DNA of 64,000 bases from Pelagophyceae sp. CCMP2097. Lineage: Eukaryota; Sar; Pelagophyceae. The stretch covers positions 159,027 to 223,026 of the forward strand of contig MU657197.1 of NCBI GenBank assembly GCA_026770575.1. The letters run 5' to 3'. Below are positions 3,121 to 53,621 of the stretch, in pieces. The first letter of the stretch is position 1. Each line of letters begins with the position of its first letter. A program made the position numbers and the translations under genes. The notes beneath the pieces are model-generated. The model was not told where the DNA came from. It did not search any database and saw only the letters and a program-made list of their open reading frames with translations.

Positions 3121-3654
3121 ATGCCCTTGGCCTTCGCCATTCAAAAGGCGATTCTCTGCCCTGGTGCAAATAACGCCTCCCAGGAACGTTCCCAGGAACG
3201 TTCTCTAGTGGCACAGTCCAACAAATCCTTGGGGTCAGCCCCTTCGGGGGCCCTTACCGAGACGGGCGCGCTGCTGTTGACGCTCGAGGGGCACACCGGT
3301 CCCGTCTGGAGCTGCGCGTTCTCGCCCGACGGCAGGCGCATCGTGACGGCGAGCGAGGACAAAACGGCGCGGCTCTGGAACGTCGAGACCGGTACGCTGC
3401 TGCTGACGCTCGGGGGGCACACCAGCTTCGTCATGAGCTGCGCGTTCTCGCCCGACGGCAAGCGCGTCGCGACGGCGAGCCTCGACGGGACAGGGCGGCT
3501 CTGGGACGTTACGTGGCCGACGCTCGCGCACGTCGTGTTCCGCACGAAACTAGTGAAGCGCATGGCGGCGACGCTGGTGCGGCGTTTCGGCCCTCCTCGT
3601 TGCGGTATATATGCCGGGCCCCACAATCACCTCCAAGGAAAAGGATCCGGTTAA
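3121..3654 (+). pseudogene. WD40-repeat gene fragment
   Basis: The frame is open over 177 codons. Its central part encodes two WD40 repeats: LEGHTGPVWSCAFSPDGRR with TARLWNVETG, then GGHTSFVMSCAFSPDGKR with GRLWDV. The repeats are followed by a basic segment (TWPTLAHVVFRTKLVKRMA). A real WD40 propeller needs about seven repeats, so this is a fragment. The first 45 codons are repeat DNA: the stretch 3090-3250 recurs at about 6930-7110. The basic tail recurs at 6245-6310. It is probably a piece of a multicopy WD40 family carried by, or broken up by, repeats. Confidence 0.6.
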
Positions 3655-19900: not shown

Positions 19901-22900
19901 GACGGACCGTCTCACGGTGGGCACTTTTGGGGTCCTGAAGAGAGTTGGAAACGGGGCCGTTCCAAGGGCACAGGTCCGCGTCGCGTTGCCACGGGCCGCT
20001 TTCTGACGTGCCAGGGGCCCCTTTGCCTGGGACGCCGCTGGAAGGTCCGCGCGGTGCTCTGGCCCGATGGACTTTCAATTCGGCGGGTTTTCCAAAAGCC
20101 CAAATTGGTGCAGATCTTTCAAAGTCTGCTTTCCAAGACACCGAATTCCAAGACCTCAGTGGTTCCACTTGGACCCACACGTCGTAGTACGCGACCGTAT
20201 GGACCACCCACGCAACCAAGCACGCCGCCGCGATGCTCTTCTTCGACACGACCTCTTCGTTGAAGCATGCCATGGCCAGGTACGGCCGCACCTATTCAGA
20301 GCCTCCAACTCCGGGCGCCAACGGCGAAACCTCTCCGGAGAGTGCCGCCTCGATGGATCCCGCGCACCCGGGTAAAGTTGAGCGGCGGGATGGTGCCCGA
20401 ATCCATCTTCGACCGGAACCCGGTTAAGTCGTCGACAAAGCCGTTGACGTTGGACAGCAGCTGCTGCTGCAGCGCGGCCCACTTGAAATCGTGCACCGTG
20501 CCGTCGCGGTGCAGTCGGACGTTGGGCGAGACGCCCGCCAGTAAGACGGCCACGGCCGAAAATGCGGCGAGCACACCGGGCGGCGCCGGGGCCAGACTCC
20601 TCGCCGCCTGCAAGTGCGCCTTGTCCAGCGTGTCCAGCGCCGCGCTCGCTTTGGACATGCACGGCTGGGCGGACGCGAGATGAGCCGCAGCTAACTCTGT
20701 CTGGCGAGTGACTTCGGCTTCGAGGTTTTCGACTCTGGCCTCCGTCTCGTCGCGCTCCGCCATTTGGTCATCGCGGGCCGATTTCGACGAGGAGACGCGC
20801 TCCAGGGTGCGCTCGGCCCCGGACCGCTTCTCCGCCGCGTCGGCGTCGAGCGCGTCGAGGTCCGCGTCGAGGGTCAGCACGGCGCGGTTCGCGCTCTGAA
20901 GCTGGAGGAGGCCTACGCGAAACGTTGAGACCTTTTGGGAAAGCGCCTCGGAAGCCGACTTTTGCAGACCGGATTCGGACCGGGCGGCCGTGCCACGACG
21001 GCAATTCGGACCGCCGAAGTGGACCGGGGAAACGGGACCGGGGAAACGGGCCCGATTCGGCCGCCGGAACCGGAGAATCCGGCCGCCCCAAAGCAAAGGG
21101 CCCGTTGCAAGCAACCGTCGCAAGCAAGGGCCGGTCCAAGACGCGCAAACCGCAGCGACGTCCAAGACGCGGCGTCGCCGCGAGAGAGGGCCCGGGGAAA
21201 CCTCAGTGCAGACTTTTCAGAGGCCCGGCCCTGAAAAGGCCGAGGACCCTCTTCAACAGGCCGTTTGAACGGGCCGTTGAGAAGGGGGCCCTTTGAGAAG
21301 GGACCGTCGGACAAGGCCCTTTTGAAAAAAGGCCGTTGAACAAGGCCCTTTTGAAAAGGGGCCTTTTTGAAAAGGACCTTTTGAACAAGGCCCTTTTTGA
21401 AAAAGGACCCTTTTGAAAAAGGCCGTTTTGAAAAAGGACCCTTTTGAAAAAGGCCCTTTTTGAAAAAGATCCTTTTTGAAAAATGACCTTTTTCAAAAAG
21501 ATGCGAAAAAGGACCTTTAGAAGAAGGCCCCGCCTCTTTCAGAATCCGCAAGAGGCGCGTCTCTTCGGGCCGTTGCCGAGGGGGCCTTTGGATTCGGCCG
21601 TCGGTCAAAGGGCCATTCTTTCAAGGCCGGCGGTGCAAACCCCGCAAACGCCGCAAAAGAGGCCGCGTCGAACCCTTTGCGGGCCGGTTTTCGGGGGCCA
21701 AACTCGGGCCCGTCTCCGGGTTTCCAGACAAAGTACCCACTCAAAATGGACCGCCGCAGAATGCGAACCGCGCTCAAAACGAGGCCCAAGCGTGACTCGC
21801 CGCCGAAGCGGGCCCTGCCTTTGGGGGCTCCCTCGCCTGCGAGAACGCCCCCTGCGGCCAGAGTATGCCGCCGCAGCCACCCAGACGCGCCGTGCAAAGG
21901 GGCAGATGGGTGTTGCTCCTGCCAGGGGGCGCTCGCCCGAGGCAGTGTACAGGGCCCCCGTAGGGGGTAAGATTTCTGAATCCGACGCCGGGCATCTTTC
22001 TGATATCGCCAAAGAGAGAGCTTCCCCCTCCGGGGCCCTGTACTGCCTCTGGAAGATGGAGACCGTGGCAAGTGGTCCCCTCGGTGGAGGATGTGTTGCA
22101 CCCTCCTTCGAGGGGGCCTTCCGAGACCGGGCGGACTCCGTCAGGTAAGGGGGCCTTCTGCCTTCGGGGGCGGGCGCAGGCCGTGCGCGGGGAGCACGGG
22201 TCCCTCGCCTGTCAGACGGACTCCGTCGGGGACCGGGAGTGGGTTGCTCCTCAAACCAGACGGACTCCGTCGGGAGATTTTGGGGTCCTCTGCCTCGGCG
22301 GCAAGCCGCCGGTTGTGTTGCCAGGGTGACTGATGGCCCCTATTTCGAACTCGTCTTGCTTTTCGAGGGCCGGGTTTTGTACGGCCTTGTCGCAAGGGGG
22401 CGCGATGCCGACTCGATCCAAGGGGGTGCGATGCGGACTCGATCCAAGGGGGTGCGATGCCCACTTGATCGGGGGCTCGTGCCCGGAATCGGCAAAGGAC
22501 CGTCCCTGCCCGTGACATGGGCGCACGTCTCGACGGCGGCGCTGACCGTGTTCGAGCCTCGAAAGCTTATAGGCGTGGCTATTGCGCTTGTGGACGAGCG
22601 TGGATGCGAAGACGTGGAGCATGCCGAGGTAGGCACTTTGGGCGACGCCGGTGCCCAGGGTCCCGAAGCAAGAGGCGGCGAACTTGGCCACGTTGGAGCG
22701 CACGCCGGCAGATTTGAAGTCCAGGGGCCCGAGGACCTTGCGAGCGACGCGCTCCAGAGCGTCTACGGGCCACGCGAGGAAGCACGACACCTGCGCGCAT
22801 TTCAAGAGCGACGGGAACCGCGCGTTCGACCTAATCGCCAAATGAAACTTGAAAGCACCCAAAGCTGCGCGACGCCGCGCCCAAGCGCGGTCCCGAATCG

Positions 22901-25900
22901 GAAGCGAGGGCCATGCTCGACCGGAGCAAGCCGCGCATCATCCTCGGAAGCGACGGCGCATTCGGCCTCGGCTGCCATCGAGGCCGAAGCAGGGGGCTTG
23001 TGCAATCTGGCTCGTGCAATTTGGACCCCCCCGGCTCGTGCAATTTGGACCCACCCGGCTCGCGGCTGTGCGGAGCGACCGAATCCGCCTTGGAGAGGTC
23101 GGACTTCGGCCCACGGCTCGACGGGTTGGACTTGAAAGGGTGGAGGGTGCGAGAACCCCACGTGTCCAAGAGCGTCGTCTCGGGTTGAGGGGGTTGAGGG
23201 CGGGGGTTCGAGTGAGCGAGTGCTCGGACGAGGGTTCGGGCCAGGGCGCGGGTTGGACTTCAAGGGTTCGGATCCGTGCGGGTTTCGGGCGCGGGTTCGA
23301 GTGAGGCTGAAAGAGCGAGGGGACGTTGCGGACCAAAGGACCGTACCTTCCGCTCTCGCCGGAATCACGCGGAGAGGCGCGTCTTCGGACTCGCCGCTGA
23401 GCGCGTCGAATGCGCGAGGTGGCGTCTTGAATCTCAAAACGGCCATTTTTTGAGTGAGGTGAGAATGAGAGGACAAGGTTTTTGAATCAAAACGCAACTC
23501 GAAGCCGAATTCGTCCTCTCACCCAGAACCTTTTTTAAAAATGACCGTTTTGAGATGCAAGACGCCACTTCGCGCAGTCGACGCGCGTTGAAGCGGCGAG
23601 TCCGAAAAAGCAACTCCTCGCGCGATTCGTCTCAGTTGCCTTTTCGGCGATAAACGTCGGTTTGGCCATTTGGAAGGGGGTCAAACCGACATATTGATCT
23701 CAGCTTAGAAGGCTCCTATCGAACAGCGGACCACGGAGGGTTCGGGTACGTGGGAGTTCGGGTACGTGGGAGTTGCGGAAAACGGGCCGTTTCAGCACTC
23801 GGTTTCGACGACATTTCTTCAGCCATGTTTTTCCTTTGAAGCACCGGACCACGGCGAGTTAGGGGCTCTCGGCCCCTGCGGGGCCCTATGCGACACGACC
23901 TGCCGAGGTGGCCCGGGAGGGGAGCCACACAGTGCTTAGATCGCGGTAGGCTCCTGCGGGGCCCTGTCCGTCAAAAGGAGCCTTCGCTCGTTGGCAAGCA
24001 TGTGGCAAGTCGATTGAGGCAATGGCGCAATCTCCGGGAAATGAAGTCGAAGCTGGAAGTCACCACGAGCCGCATGAGAAGCATACAGTGCCGTTCTCGA
24101 GTCATTTGCTCTCGGCCCCTGCGGGGCCCTCTGCCCCTTGTCAACGTCGCGTGGACCGTGGCTCCCGGAGGGCCCGATCCAGCTTCTAGGCCGCCTTTCG
24201 GGGGGCCGCCGCTCGAAAGACGTGCGGAGCATTGCACTTGAAAAGAGGCCGAAAGCGGGGGCTTTGCAACGTCGCGTTCGGCCGCCTTTCTTTAGGGCGC
24301 TCGTATTGAAACACCCGGCGGTGACGAGCCAGTCGCCCCAGGCGTCTTCTTCGCGTATAATGGGTGCCCAGAGTCGAAAACCCAGTCTCCTTCTTCGGTC
24401 GGGTTGCCCGACGTTTCGTTTTTTGCGACACTATTTGAAACCCCGTTGTGGAAACCGACGCCAAGAACCAACTCGTGTGCGCCTTTTGGGCAACGTCGGT
24501 CGAGGCGCCCGTTTCGGGCAGCCGTTCGAGACGACGGCCGGTTCAACGCCGAGTCGAGCCAGTGCCCAAAGAGGACCACCCCAGACAGCAACGGCGCCGT
24601 CCGACCTCTGTGCTTTTGCGTGCTCGAAAAAAGAGCCGCCTTTGGGGCACGCGCTTCTCTGGCTGCTCCAAGCCAAAGTCGGTCGTGGCGGACAAGGCGG
24701 CTTCGAGGCGACGTTGCTCCGAGTACGGCCCTTGTTGACATCGCCTCGAAACGGTCCGTGAGACAGCGGCCCTCGAGGCGACGTTGGAAGACGGTCTCAT
24801 CGGGCCGCAAGAGCCCACCACCATCGACAGCACTGCACGGCTCCCCGGGCACGTGGAACCCGTTTAGCCGAAGCGGTATCGCGGCGGTTTCGGTTTCGGC
24901 GGCGGAAGCGCCCCGGTGAGGGGGGTCCGCTTACGCGACGCGTGTCGTGGACGAGCAGGCCCGGGGTGAGAGCACCAAGAGTGCGGCCTCTTTCGGTGCA
25001 AATGGAACCGGGCATCTCGCTCGTCGACCAGAGACACTTGCGGTGCGCATCGCCCTTCGCAACGCCCCAAACTTGGAGAGCGGCAGGTCGAATTCCTGGC
25101 CGGGTCAAGAAGAAGCCACCCAGCAACGTGCTTCGGGACAGTCTTGGGGGAGTGCAGTCCATCGTGGTCGGCTCAAGGCCCCGGAAGGGGCCCTATACCA
25201 CTTGATTGCCCAAAGTCCAAAACCAAAACCAAAAGGCCAAAAGCGCAAATCCAAGATCCAAAACCAACATGTCACAATCGCAACGAGGCAGCTCTTTAAA
25301 GATTTAATAAAATCCCAAGGGGCGTATTTTGAGACTGGCTCACAAATGTGGAAATAGATTTGATAAAATCCCAAATATCCGCCTTGATGAGATTTCGACG
25401 TGCCTGTGGTTTGGGATGGTGGATTTGCGCGTTTGCTTTGGGCCTTTTGCTTTTGGTTTTGGACTTTGGGCAATCAAGTGGCAACTGCTGTCCCTTTTTG
25501 AGAGGCGCTCCAAGAAGGCCCTCTCGCTTTGGACCGCCTCTCTTTGGAATCGCAGAGCGGGCACTTGCAGGCGAGGTCCGCGACCGCGCCTGCCGCAAGC
25601 CGCGCCGGCGCCGACAATGGGGCATTCGGCGGCCGAGTGGTGGTCCTCCGCCTCTGTTTTGATGCCTCTGTTCGGCCGGGTTCCGCCGGCGCGTTTTCTC
25701 GGGCCTCTCGGGAGGTGCGTTTTCTCAGGCCGTTCTCGGCCGTTTTCGGACGCCCTCGACAAGGTCAAGCTCCGCAACTTGGGATTCCAACGCATCTCCT
25801 TGAGCGCCCTTTTGGGCTTGAGCGGCATTGGCCGTCCTCGAAATGGCCCCGCCAGTCTGGAAGAAGAAGCGCCTCAAATGCGCCCGAAAGCCTTTCTTGG

Positions 25901-28900
25901 CCGTTTTGAGACCGGGGTGCCTTTAGAGCAAACCGCCTCCTTTGGGAGGCGGGCCTCGAGTCGGCCCCTCTTCAGACAAACCGTTGCCGCAATTCGGACC
26001 CTTGCTTCGACTGGCCCTTTTTCGAAAAGTTTTTCAAAAAAGTTTTTAAAAAGCCGTTTCCCAAATCGATGTCTCCATAGGGCCGTGCGGCCTCCAAGGA
26101 CTCGAATTTAGGCTCAAGAGGGTTCGAAAGGGGGCCTCCGAGGGCCATCTGGCCGTCGATGCGGGGAGGGCCCGTTGAGTGCGCATTTTCGACTTTGATA
26201 GGGAGCCATTTCAACGCAGAGGTCGCAAGTCCGGTCCCCTTGCTGTTGGGGGCTGCCTCTTTGGGGGTCCCCTAAGCCGTCTTCCGAGATTGGGGCGCGG
26301 GTCCGTGCCTCCGGAGGCCGTCGGGGCTGAGGCAGAGCACGACGCGGAGGTGCAGCCCTTCCGGAAAAGCGCCGTCGGTCGTGCGCTCGTCCGGACTCAA
26401 GAGCGAGTCCAAGTCGCCCTTGACGCAGGCCTCGAGCGGGACCCAAGAACGCTCGTCTGCCACGTCCGAGTCCGCGACGAGGAGCGTGGTCGGGCCATTT
26501 TTTGCGGCTTTGATCACGTCCTGTAATTCTTTTTGAAATGCGTGCTCTGTGTCCGCGTTTTTCGAAACGCGGCGGACCGTCTGCCCCGCCAAGACCGCCG
26601 CCATTTCGGCGACGGACTTCTTGCCGCACCCGGGCCCGCCGACGAGGATCAGGGGGCCGCCGTGTTGGATGACCCTGAGCGCGCGCGCGACGTGGCAGAC
26701 GGCGTCGTGGAAGAAGCAAAAGTCTTCCAACCCGGTGCCCGCCAGCGCGCTCGAAAACGTCCGACTCAGCGAGTCCAAGTCGTCGGCCAGACCGTACTCG
26801 CCGAGCCCGCAAAAGACCAAGGGCTTGGCGTGCTCGCCGAAGACGTCGTCGGGCGCGTTGGGAAAGTGCACCTTGGCCGTTTCAGCGAGCGTGGTCCGGA
26901 AGTGTGCGACGCGGTCCGCGCGCGCCAGAGCGTCGCCGTACGTCCGCTCCGCCTCGTGGGCCCAGAGCAAGACGTCGTGCTTCTTCGCAAAGGTGGCCAG
27001 ACTGCGGCAGAGCCGCACGAGGTGCGCGAGATTGAAGCCGCCGTGCCCCGGATCCGGCCGGAACTGCGCCGAGACGCGCAGGTGCAGATCCACCGACGAT
27101 TCGACCATCGCCTCGGACGCGCCGCTCGAAACGCCTCCGGCCCGGAAGAGCGCCTCGAAGATGGTCTTCACGGAAGCGGCGCAGGGCGCGCCGAGGGCGA
27201 GCGTCGAAAAGTGCCGTCGGAGCCGCGGGTTGATGGCGCCCCTATCCGGGTCCAAGCAGGCGACGTACTGCGAGTCCGAGAATCGCTTCACCGCCTGACC
27301 AGAGTCGTCCCACTCGCCGTAGTCGAGATGGTGGCGGAAGACCTCGAGTGCCGGCTGCGTCTCAAAGTCGTCCTTGCGAGGCAGGTTCAAATCGTCGACG
27401 AAAAAAACGACGGTGCCACTCCCGGCCGCGGTGCGCCAAGCTCGGGACAAGTGCGTGCGGCCGAGGTGCGCGCAACTGTAATAATTCAAATCCACCTTGG
27501 CGAAGCGCCTGGCCGGCGCCAGCCGCAAGCTCTGGACCATGAGCGTCTTGCCTGCGCCGGCCGGGCCCGCGACGAGGGCGGGGTGGCCAGCGGAGACGAG
27601 GAGGTGAAGCCAGTGCCTAGATCTCCACGTGCATCCCCGGCGGTTCGGGAAACGTTTTCGACATGGGCCTTTTCGGTCAACGAGTTGGAAAAGGTGACGA
27701 CGGTGCCACTCAAACGCCGCCCCTTGGCCTCTTTGCGCGGGTCCGCCCAGAATGAACATGCCCTCCGATTTTGCAGTTGCGGGTTTTGCAGTTGCGGCAG
27801 CGCCCCTCGACGCCGAAAAGGTCGACCATCGAGACCGCCCCTCGAGCGGCCCCGTCGAGCGGGCCCGTCGAGCGGGCCGCACTGGGCCGTACAGGACCCC
27901 GCGAGCCCGGCCTTTGTTGCCCTCCGTTTCGAAAGGGCCCTCCAAAGAGGCAGCGGCTCTCTCGATGGACGTCCGGCTCGACGGCCGTCCGGGACCGCTG
28001 GGCCGTTGCAGCGTCGCCGGACCATCCAACGGACCTTATGACGGCGAAGTCGCCCTTCCGCTCCGCGGGGCGGTCTGCCCTTCCGCTCCGCCGGTTTGGG
28101 TATTCGTTTTCTTTTCGACGGTTCTCGACGCGGCCGGCACGAGACGCTCGCCGTCTCTTTCGTCGGGACGGTCGTGTCGTGCATATTCGACGCGTTGCCC
28201 ATTTGGAACGACGGCGCACTCGACCAGGGTTCGAACGTGTTGGAGGCGACGTCGAGCCAATAGTCGAAAATCGTGCCGCGCGGCGGCAGTTTCACCTAGA
28301 CCAGAGGCGCCTCCCTTTTGCGGCGATTTGGCGCTTTGGGTGGGCTCCAAACCGAGTTGGACCCGCTTCTTGGAATCGCCCAAAACGTGGCCTCAAAGAA
28401 TCCGACCGCATGCCGACTTTTCAAATTCAGGCCGACCAACGGGTCCACCCCTTGGCGTCCCAAGCGGATCCAACCCGCCTCGTGCAACGTGTGGATAGGG
28501 CCGACGACGATCGACCGCTTTGTATGCCCCCCCGGCCATGTCACACCGCCGGAGCGGGGCGCGCGACGTCGCGGTTTCGGCGGTTCAAAGGCCAGGGTTC
28601 GGCGAGGTGCCTTCTTTGGCGCGTCGACCTTTGCGGGCATCGTTGACCGGCGCTGAGAAGTCGCCCTTTGACGGACTCGGGCTCGAGGCCGCCGCAACTG
28701 CGCCTCCGCGGGCGCGCAAGAAAGGGCTCCTCCGCCGCAACACGCACGCCTGGATGCTGCGCCCAGTTGAGGCCGGTTCCAAAGGTGCATTCCAACAAAG
28801 GTCCGCTCGGGGGCTCCAACACCGGCCCCTCGACGGGGTCGCGGTGAAGGGGCCCGCCCGGAGCTTTGAAGACGTGCCGGGAAGAGCGCATTCCCAGAGC

Positions 28901-31900
28901 CGCAATGGTTCGCTGGAGCCGCCAAGAATGCGGTTCCCCGGTTGATTGAGAGACGTCGATTCTCGAGAGCGCCAACGGTCGGGGCAACGTACGGCCACCG
29001 CCGGGAGCTAGGCGACTTGGAGCACCCCAGTGCCCACAGCAAGGAATCTCTGAATAGGGCCCGGGCCATGCAGCCACGTTTGACAAGGGGCCGTGCTGCG
29101 TTCAAGGGCACCGGCTCCCGTCCTTTTGCGGGGCCCCCGGATTCGGACCACCTTGGAAAAGCCGGCCCTCGGAATCGCCCTCAAACGGCCCCTTGGAAAG
29201 CCCTTTCGAAACACGGTCCTGCAAGACGACGGCGCATCGAGAAAAACGGCAGATCGAACAGGCCGCAAGAAACGCAAGGCCGCGGCAAGGGCGGTCGCCG
29301 AACCCCCGTGGACTTTGCCGAGGGGCGACGCTGCCGTGTCAACGGCCCCGTTTCAACGGCCCCTTTTGAAAGGGCCCCGGCAAAAACGGCGCCTTTCCCA
29401 AGCCGAGCGAGATGCGCCTGGAGCGCCGGGCGGGGTGCCGAAAAGGGCGCAAAGAGGCATCCGTGCCAACGGGCCGAATTGAAGCACGCGTCGGGACGAA
29501 CCCGAGTCCGCAAATGCGCCTTGGTCGACGAGCGAGATGCCCGGTTGGTCGAACCGCGCCACGAAACCCCCGGTGCGTTGGCCCCGCCGAAACCGCGACG
29601 GCGGCGCCGCGTTGACCGATTTTGCTCAACTGGCCAGGGAGCCGTGCAGTGCTGTCGAGAGTGGCTCGATTGCGGGGCCCCTCTTCTGCAGGACCCTCTC
29701 GGGGACTGCCTCTCGAGGGGCCGTCTCTTCGGGCCGTCTCTTCGGACCGTCTCCGGAACCCCGCCTCTTCGGCGACCCTTTGGCAAATCGTCCCGTTTCG
29801 AGGACCCTTCGAACGGCCGTTTTGAAGAGGACCGCCAGGTCAAGAGCCAAAGGGACCGCCGTCGTCTCCAGGACCGCCTCGGGGTCGTCGCGGTGACGTC
29901 GCGCGGCCGCTTGGGCGCATCACCCGGGTTCGCCACACAGTGCTGCCGGGACTGCGTTTGCTCCCTTTTGCGGGGCCGTCTTCGAAAACCCGTCTTTCGG
30001 GGGCCGCATTTTTCAGACCGTCTTCTCCGCAATCTTCCCCGACCTTTGCGCTTCGCACCCAGACGTTGCCGGGGGCAAGCGGGGCCCCAAAAGGTGCCTT
30101 CAGGGGCGGACCACTCGAAGAGCACGTCGGACGGCGCCGGGCGAGGTCCGAGATGAAGCCGAAATCGCGCCCAAAAAGGGCGGCCAATCTGGGCCGCACC
30201 CAAAAAGGGCGGCGACCCTTTTCTCGTTACGCATTGTTTCCCGTAGGGAGCCGCTCCTCTTGTAAAGAGGGACGGACCTCGTCGTGGGGACCCCAGAGCA
30301 GGCGCCCTTCAGTGGGCTTACCCCCTTCGGGGGCCCTGTTTTTTTGGGCCGCATGCCAAAGGCGCAGTCCAAGACGCACGCCAAAGACGCAGTCCAAGAT
30401 GGGCCGTCCAAGATGACCGGAGACGGCGCAAATCCGAGAGGGGGAGCTGCTCCGGGGGAGCATTCGAACCCCGATTGCAGCACAGGACGGCTCCGAGGAT
30501 GCCACGTCTCCTCGAAGAGCATGCTCGAAAAGCACAGTCTCCTTCTTAGAGATGCCCACCTTTGTGCCTTTTGGGTCTATTTGGATTCCAAACGTGCGGA
30601 ATTCGACGACGCCGTTTGCAGCGCGCCGTTTGAAACGTCTTGTGCCACCAGTCTGAGAATTTCGCGCGGTGGCCGTGCTCCAGGAGTGCGGCGCCAAATG
30701 CCCAGATGCAGCAAAACACAAACTGCGTCTCGAAGACGGCGTCGTCCAACGCCGCCGGTTTGAAGCTGCAATCCAAAAGACGCAACAGAGTCGAGACCCC
30801 TTCCATGTCCTCCAAAGGCACCGCGGCGGCGCAGTCGAGGCGGAGGTACGCGAGCGTGAGACGCACGTACTTCTCGAACAGGCTGGAAAACACCGCGCCC
30901 GCGTCCTCGGGGAAGCCCGAACCGGGTCGGCCCACCTTCAAGACCCACGCCCCGACGAGGCTCCAAGGCACGTCCGACGCGACGTATAAAACGCCGCAGC
31001 GCGAGACGGCGGCCGGCGTGGCGAAGCGCACATCGCGGCTTTCGAGCACCTGCGTCTTTGTCGATGCGGCAGATGCGTTCGGCCACCCCTGCCAACGGCC
31101 GCAAGGTCGGGGAAAAGGCCGTTTTCCAAAAGACGCAGTTTGGACCAATTTCACGTGCGGCCCGAGCGCGACGCGCTCGTTGGATGCCAGGGTGAGGGTG
31201 CGCGGTTCGTCCATGACCGAATGCAGCGACTCGATCCAGCGAGCGTCGACGTCGCCGTCGAGCACCTACGGCACAATTTCGGAAGAGACGTTTCGAAAAA
31301 GCACGTTCCGAAAAAGAACTTGGGCCTTTGTGCGTTTTCGAAAGGGCCCCGATTTGGGCCCATCCACGAGGAAAAAACAGACACAGTCTGCGGGCCTCCG
31401 AGGGGCCTTCCACGACGACTCTACAAGGCGGACCGGAGGGCTTTTGAATAGGGACCTCCGCAAACAAGGGACCTCGTCAAACAAGGGACCTCGTCAAACA
31501 AGGGACCTCGTCAAACAAGTAAACTCGTCAAACAAGTAAACCTCGTCAAAGGAGTGGTCCTTTCAAAGTTCATCTTCGACTGCATTCAAGACGGTCTGCA
31601 GAGAGCCGAGGCGACTCTGGTCAAACGGCGGAACAATGTCGGCCGTTTTGACCCCGCGACGGCAACGAAATGACGGCCCAAGTGACCCTCCAAAGGCACA
31701 CGACCTTTAGGGGCGGTCTGAAGAGAAGGCCGCTTCGAGGAGAAGGCCGCTTCGACAGTCATCTTCAACCGTCTTCAAAAGGCCGTCTGAGAAGAGACAG
31801 CCAGCAAGGCCTTTTCGAGGCGGCTCAAGACGGTCTCTCGAGGGACGGTCCGAAGAGACGGTTCAACGAGACGGCCCGTCGGGAACGGCCTCGGCCCGTC

Positions 31901-34900
31901 CTCGGACGGCCCGTTCTCGAACGACCTCGAGGTGGTCTTTGGAAATGCGGGTTTTCGAAAGGCAGGGCCCCTCTGGCATTTTCTCAACGGCCTCTTTTTC
32001 GAAAGGCCCACCTCGTCGCAGAGGCCTTTGGTGCCGTTGAGACACCGTCTTTCGCCCTGAACCGAACACAGGATCATTCCGAGTCCGGGCGAGTCTCTGG
32101 CCTTGTCGACGGCGCATTTCATTGGGAGGGGCCGTCTCCGCGGGGCTCTCCTTGGCGCGTGCCGTGGAAGAGCGGGGGCTTTGCGGGGACCCCACTCTTC
32201 CACCGATTTTCGTCTGCAAAGGGGCTTTTGTCGCCCAAACTTGCGCGTCGGGATGCCGTCTGAAAAGGGGTCCGTTTCCGGGCGGGCGTCGGACGGCGCG
32301 CCTTTGGGATTCGGCCCTCCAACGGCGCGCTGCCTTCCAACCCCGCTTTTTCAAGCCGTGCCACGCTGGAAGGTACGATCCATTTCATTTTGTCCTCGGC
32401 GCCGCGCAGCAGTTTGGTCAAGAGCCCGTCCCGCCACGCGTTCGTTTCGGCGTCGAGGGAGCCGTACAGCATCGCGGTCGAGTGGACCTTTGGGTTGAGC
32501 GCGTGGAAGCGGACCTACGTCTCCGGAGTTGCCCCTTTCTTTTTTGGCGATTCGAGTTGCCCCTTTCTGCGACGGACCTTTTGCTCGTGCGAGTTGAACG
32601 ACTGCTGGAGTGTCTTCCACGTCGTCGACTTGCCCGACCCGGCGGCTCCCAAGACGAAGACGCAGTGCCGCGACTCCATCAAGACGCCGAGCTGCTCGAC
32701 GCGGCTCAGGAAAACCGGGTCCGGCCAGAGTCCGGCGGCTTGCGCGGCGTTGGAGATGCTCTTGGCCACCCGGGGTTCTAAAAAGACCACGTTCGGAAAC
32801 AAATCCAGCAGCGTGGCTTCGGCCCCTTGGCGGTCTTCCTCGTGATGCATCTTCGGCAAGAACACGTCGCGCACCGCGTGCAAGACGCAAAACTCTTCGT
32901 CCTGCGCCGGGTCCCTCCTCTTCAAAGCCCCCGCCGTAAGGCAGGCGTGCTTCGCGCCCCGCACGTCTCCGGCGCCCTCGGTGCGCAGTTGAACGAAGGC
33001 GTCCAGTTTGCGGCCCAGCGAGTCGGCCTTCAAGAACCCCTCTGAGAAAAGGACGGCTTGGCAAATCTTCAAGCAGTCGGGTTTTGCCATGGCCACGGGG
33101 CGGCACAGCGCCTTGAACGCCTCTGGCAAGACTGCGTGGCTCGAGCGCAGCGTGGCAAAGAACGCGCACCTCGGGTCGACGACGGCTTGGCCGTCGAGGT
33201 GGGCCGATTCTTTTCTGGCCAAGAGGTCTTTTTTGGCCAAGAGGGCCGACAAGAGGCCGGCGCAGAGGGCGAGCTTTTCCGGTTGCAGTCTGTCAAAGTC
33301 GCGCAGAATCACCCACGCCCCCGAGGCGGCCAGGCCCTTGAAGATGCGCCCGAGGCCGCACAGCTCCGTGGCCGCGCTGCACGTGAAGGCGTAACAGCAC
33401 TGGCCCAGATTTGCTGCCAAGTCTTCCACCGAGGCGGCCTTGCCGCTCCGACCAAACGTCGCCAGGCCCAGGCCGAGCTGCAGCGCGCGCGTCGCAGACA
33501 CGAAGAAACGGTCCGTCAACGGCGTCACGACGAGGCGCGGAGCATCGCCGACGTATTCGAAGCCGTAGAGGAAAGAGGCCTCGCAGACGCGCACCTCCGG
33601 AGACACCTAAAAGTTGGCCCACTCGGACAAAGGCCGACTTGGACAAAGGCCGCGTGGGCAAGCCACTCGGAAACCCCCGCTGGAAACACGGCGCCGCACA
33701 GATTCGGAGCGCCGAGAACGGCCCGTGGAACAAAACGGCGACAACGGCCCGTGGAACAAAACGGCGACAACGGCCCGTGGAACAAAACGGCGACAACGGC
33801 CCGTGGAACAAAACGGCGACAACGGCCCGTGGAACAAAACGGCCGCATCAGAGCAACGGCCGCCGAAGACCGTTGAAAGGGACCGTTGAAAGGGACCGTT
33901 GAAAGGGACCGTCTTCAAGGGGCCGTTGAAAGGGGTCGCCGGCGGGCCATCTCTGCGGACCGTCGAAAGGGACCCACGACAGGCCGCCTCTGCGGACCCG
34001 TCTTCGGGACTCGCGACAGGCCGCCTCTGCGGACCCGTCTCCGGTTCGCCTCTGCGGACCCGTCTTTGGGCCCGTCTTCAAGGGACCGTCTTCATGGGGA
34101 CCGTCGAACGGCCTTTTGAAACCCATCGCACCGTCTCCGCTGCTTTTGGCCGTCCGGACGCTCGCAAACCGTGGCTTCCAAGGCCTTTTTTCGTTCAACG
34201 GCGCTTCCGGGGCGCTTCCGGGGTGATATGGACGCCCCCCTTGAATCCCGGAAAATGAGGGACCGCCCCGAGCCCGCGGCCTGCGGACCGTCCCCAACGG
34301 ACCTTTTCAACGCCTTTTTTCAAAAAAATGGCCCTTTTTCAAACGGACCGTCCTCAACGGATCTTTTTCGACGGACCATTGAAAGGGGCCGCCGGACGGG
34401 GCCGTTTCGAAGGGGGCCGCATCCTTCCACCGCGGCATTTCCGGATTGAAAAAGGGGCCTTTTCGAACGCCGGTTCGAAACGGGCCCGCACAAAAGTCCT
34501 CGAGGGCTTTTGGATAGAAGCCCTTGAACCGTCGACCGGGGCCGTCCACCAAATCACCAACGGACGGCGCGCACTCGCCTCCCGGGCCCCTCTCCCGGTC
34601 TGCCGAGGGGCATTTGGGACCCGTCGGAGGCGGGCCGCTCAAAAATGAGCCGCTCAAAAAGGGACCGCCGAAAAGTCTCCAAACGTCGAAAAAGTCCGGA
34701 GCAGAGGGCCCCGCCTCCACGGGGGCCGTTTTCAAGACGGGCCGTTGAAAGGGGCCGTTTTCGAGGCAACGCGTCTTCCGCGGGCCGTTTGGATGCACGG
34801 GTGGCGCTGCCTCGAATGGCTCTGGGTTGCCCCTCTTGGTGCCGGCCCGTTGTCCCCGTCTCCGTCATCCCGTCTCCGCCTCTGCATTCCACCACGTTTG

Positions 34901-37900
34901 ACCGATGTTTGGTCGGCGCGGCTTGCGACGTGGCCCGCGGCGTCGCGCGCCAAGTACGGTTTCAACTGCGCCTTCCAGAAGAAGCCCGTTTTGGTCTGCC
35001 CCTGGCCCAGCTTGGCGAAGACGTCGCGGCGGTGCGAGTCGGAGAGGATGAGGTTGGTCAGGCGCATGCGTTGCGAGGCGTGCCTGGTTCTTGGAATGAG
35101 CTTCGCTTCCAGAAAAGGGGCCGTCGAAAAGCGACGGTTCCCAAGTCGCCGAACGAAGGACCGTCTCCGTCTCGCCGCCGTCGAACGAAGGACCGCCGCC
35201 GTCGAAGGACCGTCCTTTTCGGGCCGGTGGCAACGGTCGTTTTTTTCTCGACCAGCTCCATCCAGGGGCCGTCTTTTTCGACGTATTCCACGGACCGCCT
35301 TCTCGGGCCGTTTTTTAAGAACCGTCCTCTTCGGCCCGGGCCGTCGGGGAAGCCATCTCAAGGGGCCGAAACGAGACCGTCGAAGAGCCGTCAAAGACGA
35401 GGGCCCTTCGAAAAAAGGGGCCGGATCCAAAGGGCCGCCTCGAGGCCCATCTGAATGGCCCTCGAGAACGGACCGTGCTCGACGGACCGTCTTCAAGGGC
35501 CGCCGTCTCTTCAAGGGCCGTCTCTTCAAGGGCCCTCGAGCTCGGACCTTTTTTTCGCAAGAGTCGAATTCGGACTGCCTTCAGAGCCGCCGATTCGGGT
35601 CGCCTCGACGGGTCGCCTCTCCGACCCTCGACGCGTCGCCTCCTTTCAAAAAGAGCCGCCCTCAAAAAGGCCCGCCGAAGCGATGGCCGAAACGGCCGTC
35701 TTGACGGTGGTGGGATGCCGTTGACTTTGTTGGGATGCCGTTGACTTTGTGGCCTTTCAAGATGCGTTCGAATCTCGGACGAGGGCCGGTGGAAACGGCC
35801 CGTCTCGACACGCGAGCTCGCAAGCGACGTCGAACCGACGCTCTTCCGCGGGCCGCACATGCCAAGGGCCGCCCATGCGAAGGGCCGTCGAATCCACGGG
35901 CCGCCTCTGCGCGGCCGTCTCTACGACCGTCGCCGCGGCCGTCCGCAAGTCGCGAAAGGACCCTCTCGGCGCGCTCGGCGCGGCGCACTTTGTGAAAAGC
36001 CTCCTCTGTGAAACGCCTCCTTTTAGAAAAGCCGCCTCTGTGCAACGCCTGCTGGGTTCATCAGAAGGGCCGTCGTTTGCCCAAGACGTGCGCCGCTGCC
36101 TCGCGACGGCGCCTGCGCCATCTGGACGAGGTGCGTCAAGTCGTGCGACTGTCGGGCTGCATAGCGCACAAAGGCACCTGGGTCGTCGGCCTCGAGCACC
36201 GCCTCCGTCTCGGCGACGGAAAAGGCCGCCGCCACCAAGAGCGCGATTTGCGCCGCGTCTTCGGCGCGGTCCTCCTTTTGGGCGCAGAACCAGTCGAGGC
36301 GGGTCTGTTTCGGGTACCTCGCCATGGACCGCTTCAACTGGCATTTGAGCGTCCACGTTTGCGCCGAGACGACCGAGTGCAGGAAGGCGGCCACGTTGCC
36401 CGAGATGGGAACCGCATCTTCGAATTTGACGCGCTCCGTGCCGGCCTTTGAAACGAAGCCCACAGCGCCCACCGCATCATCAACCTCCAGCTTGGCCGTC
36501 TGCGGCAGCACTTTATAAATCTGCACCCTGGCAGGATTCGACCCGGTGGACCTAGAGGACCCGTTGGACACTCCGCCTCTCGGCCGTCCAAGCAGGCGAG
36601 CCGGGGCGCAAGATCCGGCGGGCTTCGGCGCTCTCCAAAGGCGCGAGCCTGCCTGCTTTGGGGCCGCCCGGTGGACTGCTGTGATGCCGCGTGATCCACC
36701 GGGCCGTCTCGGATCGAACCCCCGCCCGCTCCCGACTTGCGCCCGCCCGTCGAGTCCCGCCTCCTGCACCGCCGAGCATCGAGAGCGCGCAAGGGCCGTC
36801 GGGGCCGCCGAAGATGCCACAGTCGAAAAGGACCGTGGCACAAAAATTCCCGAATTCGGAACTGAACCCGAGTCGCAAGTCGCAAGGTGGTGGGCCGTCT
36901 TCGATGCCTCGGAGGACCTCCGGACCTCGTCGAGAACAGACTCGCGTCTGGCAGAACCCCAATCTTCAGAACCTTGGAGGCCATCCCCTCTTTGAATCAT
37001 CGAATCCTGCGCCAGGGCCGTGTACAGCAGTTGCCACTTGATTTCCCAAAGTCCAAAAGCAAAAGCCTCGTCCAAAAGCAAAAGCACAAAAAGATGGCAT
37101 ATATCCAAAACTGACGGCGTGTCAAAATCTCACCAAGGCGGCTATTTAGGATTTTATCAAATCTATTTCCACCCTTTTGGAGCCCAACTTTCTCACAAAG
37201 AAGCCTTTTTGGGATTGTATTGCATGGTTCCATATTTTGCTTCTTGAGATTTTGACACGTCTGGTTTTGGATGTTGGTCTTCTGCTTTTAGCCTTAGGGC
37301 AATCAAGTGGCAAAGGCGAATCCGCCAAACCTTGACCAAGGTCGCCGCCGAGGGGGGCAGCTTACTAGAGGCGCGTCGTGGACCCCTCGGGGTCCCTAAT
37401 TGAGCACTCCGAAAGCTCCAAATGCCGCGACCCCAAGAGAGCCTTCACCGCCAAACAAAGTCGGCATTGGCCACGGATGTCGCCTTGCGACTCGATGCAA
37501 CGGCGGGTTCCGTCTGGCGAGCTCTGGTAAGGTGCCGTCTGGTGAGGTGCTCCGCGGTCCCGATGCAGGGCGAACCTTGGTCTTGGGCGGCGATGCAGGG
37601 CGAGACCCGCTTCGGTTCGACGGTCGCTCAAAGAGTCGCTCGAAAACACCAAATCCCAAAAGTCGAAATTGGAAGCAAAGGCTTCCACCTTCCACTCGGG
37701 CGACGGACGCTCGCACCAAAGGCTCGAGTGGCTTGCCCAAAGGTCGAAATGTTGGGGCGACGCAAAAGTGGCCTGGCGCACCAAGAGCCCCGTGCTCGCC
37801 ACCGGGGCTGAGCTTGTGCCCAAGGGACCCACGAGGCGGGCCGCGCTAGACCGGCCGGTCGACAAAGGCGCCCGCGGGGATGGGCTCGTCTCCAGTCGGT

Positions 37901-40900
37901 CGAATACGGTCATTTGCAGAGGTTTGGCCTTGCGCATTCGAGCAGGTACGAGGGCGGGGTGTTGCCGCGCGCGCCGTCGCCTCTGTCTAGACTGACGCCG
38001 GGCAACCGGTCCCGCCCGCCCCCCCGGTGAAAGGGGGACTGCGCCCGGTACGGCGCGCCCCGCAAAAGCTTTGCCGAGGCCACGACCCGTTGAGCGTGCT
38101 CGCCGAACCTGGCTCTAGTTGCGCCCATCGCGCCGCTCTGGAGACCAGCTCGGTGCCAGGGGAGGCGGCGCCCCTTTGAACTCGCCAGACTCGCTGGCCT
38201 CGCCAAAGCAACCAAGCGCGACGGCGCGATACACAAACGGGCAGTATTTGGGTGCCTCGGCGACCCGAGTCTTCGGGCCCCATTTTCCGATTTGCCGCTC
38301 GTGCCGCGCCGACTCTTCGCACGCCGAGTTTGCACTTTGCGTCTTGCGAGTCGTCGAGGTGGAAAGCGACTTTGGGCGCGCAACTGCTTCGGTCCGAGGG
38401 TGGTCCGGTGGAGGCGTGTGCGATTCGGGTTCTCCAAGAGGGGCGCTCTCTTCGGGGCCGTCCTCGAGACAGAGGCCCGTCTTCGGGGACCTTGCGTCTT
38501 GGGCCACGCTTGGAAAAGGCGAAAAGTCCCGGAAAACGTGGCGTCTTCGGGCCGTGGCTCGGTCCGTGCACAACGGGCCCGTTTTGAAGCGACGTGGTCC
38601 GCCCGCTTTCCGAGTGGCATCCGCCCTTTCGACAAGCGAGTCGCTGGTGAGGCCCCGTGCCGAATCGTACACGGAGCCCGGTCCCCGCCGTCTCAATCGC
38701 CGCAATCCGAATCGGCATCTGCGTCGGTTCGAAACTTTTTCGACGACTTGCCAACAAAGGGCCCGTTTCAAAAAAATGCGTGCCGTTCTGCGACCGCGTT
38801 GGCCACCTTGGCTCTTGGCCGCTCCCTTCCGGGCCTCTCCAGCGTCCTCCGCGTTCCACGGACTTTGCCCTCGGCAAACGCTCAATCTGGCATTCGGCAT
38901 CGTCTGTGGAATCCTCCGGGACCTTATGCATCGGATTTTTCAAATGGGCCGTTTTTCCCTCCAATTTGGCCGTCGTTTTTTTAAAAAATGGGCCGTTTCC
39001 CCTCCGGCACCGTGGTGCGTCGCAGTCTCAGCCGCAGCACCCGAGCGGCGTGCGGGGCCCCGCGCCGACGCGCCTCTGGCTTCGGGGACGTTCGAAGCGC
39101 CGGCCAAGGTCAGATAGGGAGGCTTCGGTGAAGGATGCAACCTGCGCAGACTCGCACGACCCTCCGGCCCTGTCCGTTTCATCGAGTCGACAACCAGGCC
39201 CGTCTCTCCGCGGTTCCGCGCGCCCGTTCGTCTCGGGGCTCTCGGCCGACTCGAGGGGCCTTTGGGGGTCGCGCCGCCGAGAAGGCGCGGTCCCGCAGCC
39301 CCCGCACCTGTGGGTGATTTCGAGCACCGCGCTCATTTTGAGCCTCTCGAGGCCTCGGCGAATCCGGCCCGGGGCTGCTGCGCGGGGTGAGTAGACCGAC
39401 CCATGCGGCCCATAGCCCGAAGAGACGGGCCCACCTTGGCCGCCCACGCGGCCGAACGGGGTTGGAGCCCCACGAGCTTTCAGGCTTCAACGCGGCCCCT
39501 CTTTTTTTGACCCCGCTTGTTCCAGGGTCCAGACGCCGCTTTGCGCAGCATGTCCAAGAGGTCGGCTTCGGCGATGAAATAAAATCTGGGGAAGGTGTCG
39601 CGTTTGGCGTTGACGAAGTCGGCCAGCGCGCGCTTCAGCGACTCCAGATCCGCATGCAGCGAGTCCAGCTGTTCCCCGACGCCGCTTTGCGAGCAGGCCC
39701 GGATCACGTTCTTCGAGTGCGCGAGACTGCGCAAGACGGACCGCAATCGCGCGTGCGCCGACTTGAAGTGCGACGAAGCGACGGGGAGCTCCGCCTTGAC
39801 CTCGGGAGCCCCGAACAAGGGTTCTAGACAAGTCCACGTCCGCTGCACCGCCGTGAGCATCGCGGCCGTGGCCGCCACGGTGGCGAGCGACGTTTGCCAC
39901 TCTTCAAGTTCCGTCTTCAAAAAGGTGGTCTTGTGCGCGGCGGTGCGCAGCGCGAGCTGGTCGTGGGCGAGCTGGGCCGCGTCGGATTCGGCGAGGGCGA
40001 GCAGCGGCACGTCCGTTTGTTTGTAGTACGTCGTGTCGAAGACGGCCGCGGCCCAAAACGCCTCGACGCTCTTGAGGGCCGACTCTCGCGCCGCCTCTCG
40101 CAAAGCGCCGTCGCAGACTTGGGTCACAAAAGAAGCGGGCAAGTCGAGCGCGAGGATTTCGCTCAACGCCATGGACCGCACGTCCTGCTCGACGGAGGCG
40201 CTCAACGCGGCCCAGTGCCGCTCTCGCAGCGCCGCGCGCTTCAACGAGGCGACGAGGTGGCACGCGCTCTGAAAATGCACCGCCGTCTTCACAAGCTGCG
40301 CCTGAGCCTCGCTCTTCAAGACGGCCGGCGGCATGGCCATCACTTTGTGCCTGACAAAATCGCCGTTGTCCACAAGCCCCGCCGCGTCCAAGTCGCGGAA
40401 GTGCACTTCGCCGGCCTGGCGCATGTACTCGCGGCATTCGCCGGCGAGGCTCCAAAATGCCGAAAACGCGCCCAGGACGCGGCCCGCGTCGGCGCACAAT
40501 TCAACGGACTGGCACATTTGGTCGCGGCAGTCGAAGAGTGCCGCCAGGTGCATCATCTCTTCGAGCTTGCCCTCTTCGACTGTGTACTCTGCGACCATGG
40601 CCTCCAACGACGCGCCGTCCCGCGTCTGGAACGGCGCCCGGGCCACCTTTTCCGAGAAAGCGCGGCACCGCGCCTCGTGATCCGCCATGTCCGACGCCGT
40701 CCTCGACGCTTGGTCCTTCATGTACGGCGCAATGCGCAACTCCGCCGGCGGGGCCTGCGAAAGGACTTGCTCGTAGACGCTCCGATGCTTGTCTAAAAGA
40801 GCGAGCTGCGGGCCGACGTTGGACCCCTGCGATTTTAAAAAGGCCAAAGTGCAGGCCAGCCGGTCTAATATCAAGCCGTTGGCCGCTGTCCCTTCTGCCA

Positions 40901-43900
40901 CCTCGACGAGCCCGAGCTTGACGGAGACGAGAGCCGCTCGATTCTCGGAGTCGCTCCAGTCGCTCTTGTGAAAAGGTGCGCTGATGGCAGCCAGAGTGCT
41001 CTCGAGCCAGTCCTCGACGAGTCGCAGATCGTGCCGGATCTGAGTGGCAAGCAGCTTGCCGGTGAACGTGTTATTCGCCCGCGCGCCGCTCGACTCGAAC
41101 ACGACGTCGGCGCCGCTCCCGCGCACGGCCCCCGCGAGGCCGCCGAAAGTGCCGTTGAAAACGACGGCGATGGTGTATTTGCCGGGCGCGTCGGGCGAGA
41201 ACGAGACGAGGTACGACCCGTCGTCCCGGTCCCGCACGGACACGTTCCGAAGGACCCGGTCGCCGTGGTGGATGACGACGGTAAAGTCGTCGTTTCCAGT
41301 CTGGCGATTTTCGTTGTTTGCGTCTCGGGCGCGGATGACAAACGTCGCCGCTTCGCCGGCGAGGCCGCCGTGGAGCAGGCCGGGGCCGAAGATGAGCGTG
41401 GTGGCGGCCGAGGTGACGGGGAAGAAGACGAAGCTCTGAGCCGTGGTGGTGAACGAGTCGCCTTTGAGGGCGACTCGGACGTGCACCTAGACGGTGGGCC
41501 TTGCCGGTGAAGACCATGTCGCAGGCCACGCCCCCGCTCGTTGTCGACGGCTTTGGACGGGTTTCGGATTCGGGCCTTGCCTTCAACGGCACCGGAAAGG
41601 CCGACGAATTGAGAGGGGGCCTTTCTCCGAGGATTCGGGCCAAAAAGCATCGCATTCGGGCCCGTCTCCGAAAGCGCCCGAAGAAAGACCGTGGTCCCCG
41701 TACCTTGGGGACGGTTGGCAATCCGAAATCAGGTGCGCACGTCGCTTCCTGCGCGTCCTGCGGGCCCAAAAGTCCAACATCCGCAGGCCCCCCGTCGTCG
41801 GAAAGATGACACACCATCCGGGCCGCGTAAGGGATTCGGCGGAACAGGACGCCGATGATTTCCAATTCCGGCTCTGATGCGGTCTCTGATGCGGTCTCGA
41901 CGAGTTCAACTTTGGCCTTGCGGAGCACGAAATCCTGGGGTCCGGAGGAGAACGGGCCCCGTCGACCGAAAGGGGGCCGGCGATCGCCGAAATCCGTCTT
42001 GCCAGATTGGCCCTCGAGGGGGGGGCGAAAAGGGTGGCTTCTTCTCGAAAAGGGGGGCTTCTTCGGAACATTTGAAGAGGGCCCCGTCGACTTGTGGCCC
42101 GTTGAACTTGTGGCCCGTTGAACTTGCGGCCCCTCCAAGCCCGTTCTAGAAAGAGGCCCATGGAGAGAGGCCCCTCACTTCGCCCCGTCAAAAAAAGGGC
42201 TCTTGTTGTCGGCCGAAGGCGGCTCCTCCGCCAACCGGGCTCCCTCGCGCGGGCCATTCTCGGCCGTCAGCGGACATGGATATTGGCCCGGTGATCTTGG
42301 CCCTTTGATCTTGGCCCTTTGACTTTGTCCGCGACGGGAGTCGTGCTGTTCCCCTGTCAGAGGTGATCTCTTTCCGGTTCAACGGACGCCGCATCGCCAC
42401 CTCTCCGGCGCCGTAGGTTGAAAAGTCTGGACTTTTGCAGCGCAGCAGACTCGCACTCACGAATTCGCCCAAAACGTCCACCGCCCCGTGTTTGCCCGCG
42501 AACCGCAGCAGTACGTTTTTGGAATTGACAAAATCCACGCCCGTGATGCTCAGCGGCGTGTGGCCCGTCACGGGGCCCGCGTTCGGTTCGACTGACGAAA
42601 TTGCGTACGGCGGGCCCACGACGCCCGACACGTCCAGAGTCAACGTATCGCCGAGCCATGCGTCGCCCCAGCCGCCGAAGAGCACCAGCCGCGAGCATGG
42701 CGCGTCGTACGCAAGGACCTAGCAACGCGTGAGAGCCAAAAGGCCACTTGAAAGGCGGCCACTTGAAACGGCACCCTCAAGACCGCCCCTCGAGACGGCC
42801 CTCGAGACCGCCCCTCGAGACGGCCCTCGAGAACGGCGCCGTCAAGACGGCCCTTGAGAACGGTCCCTCGAGAACGGGCCCGTCTCGACGGCCCCTTCCG
42901 ACGGCCATTCAAAATGGCGCCTCGAGAAGGCCCCTCGAGAACGGCCATTCGAGACGGCCATTCGAGACGGCCCCTCGAGACGGCCCCTTTCGACGGCGAC
43001 TCGAGACGGCGCCGTTTCGACGGCCCCTCGAAACGGCGCCTCGAGACGGCCACTCGGGACGGCCCCTCGAGACGGCCCCTGGAGACGGCCATTCGAAACG
43101 GCGCCTCGAGACGAACCCTTTCGACGGCCATTCAAGACGGCGCCTCGAGACGGCCCCTTTCGACGATCCCTTTCGACGGCCATTCGAGAAGGCGCCGTTT
43201 CGACGGCCCCTCGAGACGGCCCCTCGAGACGGCCCCTCGAGACGGCACCTCGAGACGGCCATTCGAGACGGCGCCTTGAGACGGCGCGCCTCGAGACGGC
43301 CCCTTACGACGGCCCTTTGAGGCGGCCCCTGGAGACATCGCCGTTTCGACGGCCCCTGGAGACGGCCCCTTTCGGCAGCCAATCCTGACGGCCCCTGGAG
43401 ACGGCCCCTTTCGGCAGCCAATCGTGACGGCCCCTTTCGACGGCGACTCGAGACGGGCCCGTCTCGAACGGCCATTCCAAACGGCGCCTCGGCGCCGTCT
43501 CGAGGCTTGGGCGGTCCAGAAACCCGAATGCCTTTTGGGTGGGGCCTTTTGAGCGTCCCAAGAACCCGAATGCCTTTTGGGTGGGGCCTTTTGAGCGTCC
43601 CAAGAACAACGGGCCCTCTGTGAATGCCGCTTTGCCGGCGGGTGCTCCCTTGCACCCGGCCCCAGAGGCTGCCGCCCCGAATGCGGCGGTCCCGTGCACC
43701 GTCGCAAAGGGCGGTCCTTTGTGGCAGTTGCGTCCGGACCCTTTCTTTGGGCAGGTGCATTGGGCAGTTGCATTGTTCTGGTCCCTTCCGACGGCCCCGA
43801 ATGCGACGCCGCTCTGGGCGGAGCCAAAGGACGGCCCCTGCTCACGGTGCCTTTCGTTTTGGGGAGTTGCGCACGGCCCCTCGGCGCCCTCGACGGATGC

Positions 43901-53156: not shown

Positions 53157-53621
53157 NNNNNNNNNNNNNNNNNNNNNNNNNNNNNNNNNNNNNNNNNNNN
53201 NNNNNNNNNNNNNNNNNNNNNNNNNNNNNNNNNNNNNNNNNNNNNNNNNNNNNNNNNNNNNNNNNNNNNNNNNNNNNNNNNNNNNNNNNNNNNNNNNNNN
53301 NNNNNNNNNNNNNNNNNNNNNNNNNNNNNNNNNNNNNNNNNNNNNNNNNNNNNNNNNNNNNNNNNNNNNNNNNNNNNNNNNNNNNNNNNNNNNNNNNNNN
53401 NNNNNNNNNNNNNNNNNNNNNNNNNNNNNNNNNNNNNNNNNNNNNNNNNNNNNNNNNNNNNNNNNNNNNNNNNNNNNNNNNNNNNNNNNNNNNNNNNNNN
53501 NNNNNNNNNNNNNNNNNNNNNNNNNNNNNNNNNNNNNNNNNNNNNNNNNNNNNNNNNNNNNNNNNNNNNNNNNNNNNNNNNNNNNNNNNNNNNNNNNNNN
53601 NNNNNNNNNNNNNNNNNNNNN
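53157..53621. other. Assembly gap
   Basis: A run of 465 N. The left edge is a short tandem repeat built on GCGGCGTAGCCGCAG (53103-53150). The right edge enters a SINE-like repeat. Both are likely reasons for the assembly break. The gap length may be arbitrary. Confidence 0.99.

Follow-up and report, generated by a model that had tools for sequence, protein, structure and literature searches.

A kelch-type outer-arm dynein heavy chain gene with a degenerate AAA1 site in Pelagophyceae sp. CCMP2097

Dyneins hardly vary at the AAA1 site: in the best 120 of the 498 homologues that reached the search threshold it is intact wherever it is covered. A dynein heavy chain gene of the alga Pelagophyceae sp. 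CCMP2097 lies on the minus strand between 48.9 and 7.2 kb of the window (the whole stretch of 64,000 nucleotides that was analysed), and its initial annotation reported an AAA1 site so altered that the chain could not hydrolyse ATP there. The locus raises the question whether it is a wrongly read or wrongly assembled gene, an unusual but working motor, a gene in slow decay, or a chain kept for something other than ATP-driven force.

Gene models were built by spliced alignment of a protein reference to the window with a purpose-built aligner that penalises stops. The references were C152, an intact alpha-type paralog from the same genome (kelch-type, 4,189 residues, eight GT-AG introns), and P0005, a clade-A homologue (see below for the clades). 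The C152-guided model runs from 48882 to 7212 with 32 exons, 3,883 codons, no stops and a score of 3911; the P0005-guided model has 30 exons, 3,789 codons, no stops and a score of 4949, and its product is 37.9% identical to P0005 over 3,731 residues. The two models have 17 identical exons, 29 of 32 overlapping ones and 11,084 coding bases in common, and their introns have GT-AG ends. The whole gene (7212–48882, minus strand, as are all of its parts given below) thus has about 30 exons and 3,789–3,883 codons depending on the reference, while 3,837 residues had been given initially. Doubtful exons are the small ones at 29038–29047, 25344–25403, 13797–13898 and 10833–10957 and all those above 48269; since the aligner does not model frameshifts, the small ones may hide one. 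Because stops are penalised, the fit was repeated with the cost of a stop lowered to at most that of a mismatch. Only three stops then appeared; one is beyond the 5' end, and the other two are inside stretches of 60–63 bases with GT-AG ends that are introns in the main model. About 115 stops would be expected in 3,883 random codons of intron composition. Neither model therefore shows the broken frame or lost splice sites of a pseudogene. The introns total about 30 kb and are rich in minisatellites (e.g. 19620–19913, 33713–33843 and 42756–43460).

Direct reading of the minus strand and comparison with relatives bear out the degenerate AAA1 site. The exon concerned (32578–33606) carries AAA1 and the AAA2 P-loop, lies in a stop-to-stop frame of 363 codons (32518–33606), and matches all 327 positions of the Pfam profile AAA_6 (PF12774, E 5e-60). 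Walker A reads TFGRSGKAAS in place of GPAGTGKTET, with two residues deleted (33430–33459), Walker B reads ILRDFDR in place of CFDEFNR (33289–33309), and sensor 1 reads ATLRSSH in place of ITMNPGY, followed by a three-residue deletion (33136–33156). All three losses had been reported in the initial annotation and are found as described, within one open exon, the Asn-less sensor 1 lying just beyond the interval then given. In residue terms, the P-loop Thr has become Ala and the Walker B Asp-Glu has become Arg-Asp, while one Gly and the Lys of the P-loop are retained. The Walker A, Walker B and sensor 1 by which an ATP-driven dynein motor is recognised at AAA1 are absent, so we file the chain as a family member by descent and not as a working motor. 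The loss of three independent catalytic elements makes it well supported, at the level of sequence, that AAA1 catalysis is lost and that ATP would not be hydrolysed at this site, as had been proposed.

One might suspect that intact motifs are hidden by a frameshift whose repair would restore GPAGTGKT and the Asp-Glu pair, or that an alternative intact exon exists. When all six frames of the window were scanned for P-loop, DEFN and T[ML]NPGY strings, no intact AAA1 motif turned up in another frame; the minus-strand matches are the AAA2 and AAA3 P-loops only, and the plus strand gave one chance DEFN at 41899. As there is no frame in which the AAA1 motifs are whole, we consider a frame error unlikely, and the alternative exon was rejected as well. 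An assembly or sequencing error in AAA1 is most improbable: although a single assembly was examined, the site differs by scattered substitutions and in-frame deletions, the 363-codon frame around them is open with conserved flanks, and the whole motor is divergent, not one spot.

The site might also bind ATP in another way. The sequence GRSGK retains one Gly and the Lys of the P-loop, and a predicted fold bears on the same point. A first prediction of AAA1 was poor (14 rows, pLDDT 58.6) and a second moderate (40 rows, pLDDT 72.8, pTM 0.48); the best PDB match of the predicted fold is AAA1 of the Tetrahymena kelch-type chain 7k5b_C (TMq 0.54, rmsd 7.5). This model retains the helix of Walker A and the strands of Walker B and the sensor, so the domain is still AAA1-like by predicted fold, although the model cannot decide ATP binding and P-loop residues 49–55 belong to its low-confidence part. 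Two loop residues are deleted, Thr is changed to Ala and Asp-Glu to Arg-Asp, and the sensor Asn is lost with three residues deleted, which together make an unusual but working AAA1 very unlikely.

How rare this loss is was judged from homologues. A protein search gave 498 matches reaching the threshold, of which the best 120 were examined. Every one of these 120 keeps DEFNR and the sensor Asn; the P-loop is a whole GPAGTGKT in 115, its TGKT end is visible in 2, and 3 have no coverage there. Two fragment searches added 3 and 18 matches (21), 17 of them readable at Walker B and sensor 1 and 16 of those normal at both. The exception, P0123 (ENA metagenome, 484 aa), has CLDNFRR as its Walker B and lacks the sensor Asn; it shares these two degenerate elements with the window gene, but only P0123 retains Walker A (GPGGTGKT). 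Its tree position is unsure (long branch, 30% of columns), and it is possibly an intermediate or an independent loss. Thus, of the 137 homologues whose AAA1 motifs could be read (the 120 examined of 498 and the 17 fragments), not one has the triple loss, and neither a close ortholog nor an ortholog with the same loss was found by the protein search and the two fragment searches. Titles and abstract beginnings from a literature search of partial coverage describe no naturally occurring outer-arm chain whose AAA1 is dead.

The alga's own genome (66 Mb, 638 contigs) gave 39 AAA_6 matches, which were grouped into at least 20 loci. Among the other 19 dynein loci, 16 have all three normal AAA1 strings and 3 have none. 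These three dynein-like genes have long open frames. The one at C168:12300-22299 (L026) has GVPGAGATAT and LVLDHGHR and is a strong match to axonemal chains (E 2.7e-115); at C10:419300-429299 (L027) AAA1 reads GPKAGGKAET; and at C173:19100-29099 (L028) GAAGAGKT is kept and a normal Walker B is absent.

The class of the chain can be read from the region ahead of the motor, here called the docking region (Kelch/TIG/filamin). Kelch sequence is encoded by exons 48052–48250, 46498–46669 and 46126–46310 (46126–48250), as given by the C152-guided model, Kelch profiles and tblastn to C152. The profiles match at 46202–47116 with a best E of 4.6e-13 and 49.4 bits, just below the curated cut-off of 50; the tblastn matches are collinear with the Kelch region of C152, and 104 of the 115 N-terminal conserved columns are kept (a column being conserved when 80% or more of the other 26 rows agree, where present). 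On these grounds we count an N-terminal beta-propeller as present. Exons 43986–44099 and 42401–42718 (42401–44099) hold the last Kelch part and a TIG (Ig-like) domain (PF01833, E 3e-8), and a single exon (39535–41486) holds a filamin (Ig-like) domain (PF00630, E 1.4e-14), the tail and the start of the linker (DHC_N2, PF08393, E 5e-57). The propeller is thus followed by two Ig-type domains, both above the cut-off.

In PDB, four third-outer-arm chains top the list for the TIG exon (best E 1.1e-19), and the tail exon matches best Tetrahymena gamma (1e-51) and Chlamydomonas alpha (2.1e-50). The best match of the AAA1, tail and TIG exons is in each case the Tetrahymena third outer-arm chain, with Chlamydomonas next for tail and TIG. 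According to the available sections of King 2025 (PMC12338079), the third outer-arm chain combines a propeller with two Ig folds and is found only in Diaphoretickes, and section 4 names an enlarged AAA5 loop over the buttress as another of its traits. The window gene has Kelch propeller, TIG, filamin, linker, six-AAA ring, stalk and C-terminus in the same order as this chain (Chlamydomonas alpha/ODA11; Tetrahymena gamma, 6zyw_A and 7k5b_C), and differs from it at AAA1, where Walker A, Walker B and sensor 1 are lost, and at AAA3, where the sensor Asn is missing. Descent and domain order therefore support its assignment as a probable kelch-type third outer-arm chain. The initial annotation had suggested that it may be a structural or regulatory outer-arm subunit; the outer arm is what descent and domain order speak for, and the role is one that would fit the well-kept docking region.

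The sampled ochrophytes contain three alpha-type clades, which we name A, B and C. In the motor tree the window gene falls in clade A (SH-aLRT 99), C4 in clade B and C152 in clade C. It pairs there with a Florenciella sequence that covers 23% of columns (SH-aLRT 93), and the other sampled members of clade A have an intact AAA1. Its branch is 6.13 long against a median of 0.25, and AU tests reject a position with neither clade B (p 0.28) nor clade C (p 0.096). The tree of the N-terminal region groups it with clade A and two near rows (98/97 with a ten-row set and 85/79 with a five-row set); its end branch there measures 1.09 (median 0.32). A wide AAA1–AAA3 tree was also tried and gave no placement: the window gene, with a branch length of 4.26, came out at the midpoint root. 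P0096 switches clade between two trees and so may be chimeric.

C152 and C4 are of the same motor family as the window gene, and C152 has the same N-terminal plan as well; unlike the window gene, both keep GPAGTGKT, DEFNR and TMNPGY. The initial annotation had allowed for other alpha-type paralogs, and these two intact ones are indeed present in the genome, but both belong to other clades. C4 is 75% identical to an Aureococcus protein over the longest matched piece, and both group in the tree, which points to a pelagophyte-like ochrophyte as the host. Clade-B alpha-type motors (C4:868200-883500, L018/L035; P0042 and P0053) apparently have no Kelch N-terminus, and in C4 an ankyrin-like sequence was seen by eye ahead of the motor.

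Beyond AAA1, the motor is present throughout. The rest of the linker lies in exons 36108–36551 and 34903–35083 (34903–36551; spliced models and tblastn), and the rest of AAA2 with its lid in exons 32377–32514, 31146–31265 and 30637–31049 (30637–32514; PF17852, E 6.6e-16), with the AAA2 Walker B LDGDVDA retained. Exons 28141–28295 and 26344–27616 (26344–28295) encode AAA3 and the start of AAA4 (PF12775, E 6.7e-27; PF12780, E 9.8e-12); AAA3 retains its Walker B, and its sensor 1 Asn has become Asp. The AAA4 lid, stalk and microtubule-binding domain are found in exons 22547–22847, 20368–20912, 20155–20291 and 19171–19281 (19171–22847), and AAA5, AAA6 and the C-terminal region in exons from 16157 down to 7212 (7212–16157), both by spliced models and tblastn, the 3' end of the gene being collinear with the C-terminus of C152. 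As had been stated initially, the P-loops of AAA2 (GAAGSGKST), AAA3 (GPAGAGKT) and AAA4 (GGPGCGKKS) are retained. The linker and microtubule-binding domain, described then as kept, are recognisable but worn, with 91 of 148 and 34 of 62 conserved columns; over these P-loop domains, linker, stalk and microtubule-binding domain, 30–66% of conserved columns are retained.

This wear differs sharply from the state of the docking region, where the retained share (88–90% over the two gene models) is that of working chains (controls P0067 0.95 and P0033 0.84; P0042 with 0.16 and P0053 with 0.00 are low because the region is missing or different there). AAA1 keeps 99 of 218 conserved columns (45%; controls 0.92–0.95) and the motor outside AAA1, linker included, 616 of 1,173; the difference between AAA1 and the rest is not significant (p 0.055), and AAA4 is worse than AAA1 with 29 of 97. 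As a control, P0067 is itself poor in linker and AAA5. The P0005-guided model gives 106 of 120 for the docking region versus 701 of 1,391 for the motor (Fisher 2e-17), so the contrast persists with a second gene model, and it persists with C152 left out. Identities agree: in the docking region the window gene is 47% identical to P0005 (C152 38%, Ectocarpus 41%), while in AAA1, normally the best-kept part of the chain, it is 41% identical and four intact chains are 75–88%. Its motor is about 37–38% identical to its clade; among normal members the figure for AAA2–6 is 57–71%.

Codon usage is that of a gene and differs from the introns. GC3 of the window gene is 0.827 against an overall intron GC of 0.617 (C152 0.860, C4 0.896), and its codon usage correlates with those of C152 and C4 at r 0.96 (0.99 between C152 and C4), whereas GC1 and GC2 are raised over C152. 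The GC1/GC2 rise and the extreme motor branch show that amino-acid constraint is relaxed across the motor, which is not a clean loss of AAA1 only; GC3, codon usage and the docking region are constrained. With AAA4 worse still and the AAA3 sensor Asn lost, the whole ring may be failing.

These data bear on the main rival explanation, that of a dispensable chain in slow decay whose motor is functionless now, with the frame still open either because too little time has passed since the loss for stop codons to become fixed or because the arm would suffer from a truncated chain. Such a "ghost gene", a term already used for vertebrate DNHD1 in the available part of PMC8754002, would account for the very long motor branch, the retention near half of conserved columns throughout the motor, the GC1/GC2 shift, the roughly 30 kb of minisatellite-rich introns versus eight of 45–121 bases in C152, and the two intact alpha-type paralogs. 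However, a neutral gene this diverged should bear many stops and frameshifts, and the models need none; GC3 is held far from intron GC; and uniform decay does not predict a docking region kept like that of working chains. We regard it as rather unlikely, though to be taken seriously.

A relaxed motor with a normal docking region is the pattern expected of a subunit kept for attachment. The Kelch region could in principle serve as a scaffold away from the outer arm, for instance at the basal body, the transition zone or elsewhere in the axoneme; the motor is relaxed with the propeller kept, and the genome has other alpha-type motors that could take the place in the outer arm. However, there is no positive pointer to another site and the retained conserved columns are those common to outer-arm chains, so a move elsewhere seems quite improbable.

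What is observed is an intact frame, the loss of three AAA1 catalytic elements, a docking region conserved like that of working chains and a strongly relaxed motor. As the frame is open and the anchoring part is kept while the ATP site is lost, the chain is probably a passive or regulatory part and not a motor. We favour, with a rough probability of 0.55 on this comparative evidence, a kelch-type third outer-arm chain that would be kept for its docking region and ring and not for ATP-driven force. What counts against this reading is that no ortholog with the triple loss was found in our searches, that the motor branch is extreme and the relaxation extends across the motor, AAA4 included, and that the docking region also evolves faster than usual (1.09 vs 0.32).

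A chain so kept would still join the outer arm through its Kelch/TIG/filamin region, with an AAA1 that could not bind or hydrolyse ATP productively and AAA2–AAA4 that may still hold nucleotide, possibly for structure or regulation. It is ATP binding at AAA1 that makes the stalk let go of the microtubule, and dynein in the apo state is tightly bound (PMC7215579, available part); a dead head should therefore have no ATP-driven release cycle. It may act as a passive tether or cross-bridge, a brake or a spacer beside the active heads. With 34 of 62 conserved columns in the microtubule-binding domain, microtubule binding may be weak, which makes a spacer more likely than a brake. Chlamydomonas oda11 lacks the alpha chain, yet the other parts of its arm assemble; where present, this chain adds power, retains Lis1 and helps to make the two flagella beat differently (PMC12338079, section 6).

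DNHD1, a vertebrate orphan, is a dynein-related chain thought to be without normal motor function (PMC8754002, available part). The window gene resembles it in this description and is set apart by its kelch-type outer-arm N-terminus; in the available text of PMC9916431, which deals with DNHD1, nothing on AAA or ATPase was found. More tentatively, a head that is permanently dead could be a selected part of an outer-arm dynein, serving as passive cross-bridge or as regulator, and this might be repeated in the alga, with its three further dyneins, as a class of axonemal pseudo-motors. If true, a motor would here have become a pseudoenzyme, a category of which pseudokinases are the better known members. 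A natural anchored chain without AAA1 would also show what the third head contributes without ATP turnover, so far approached mainly through the Chlamydomonas mutant without the whole chain (PMC12338079, section 6). Of the three further AAA1-degenerate dyneins, one is clearly related to axonemal single-type chains.

Around the gene, WD40 repeats occur on the plus strand at 3001–3651 of the window (PF00400, E 7.5e-28), and a run of 465 N at 53157–53621. Another dynein with normal AAA1 motifs (L021, C34:138000-147999) lies about 50 kb away on the opposite strand of the same contig.
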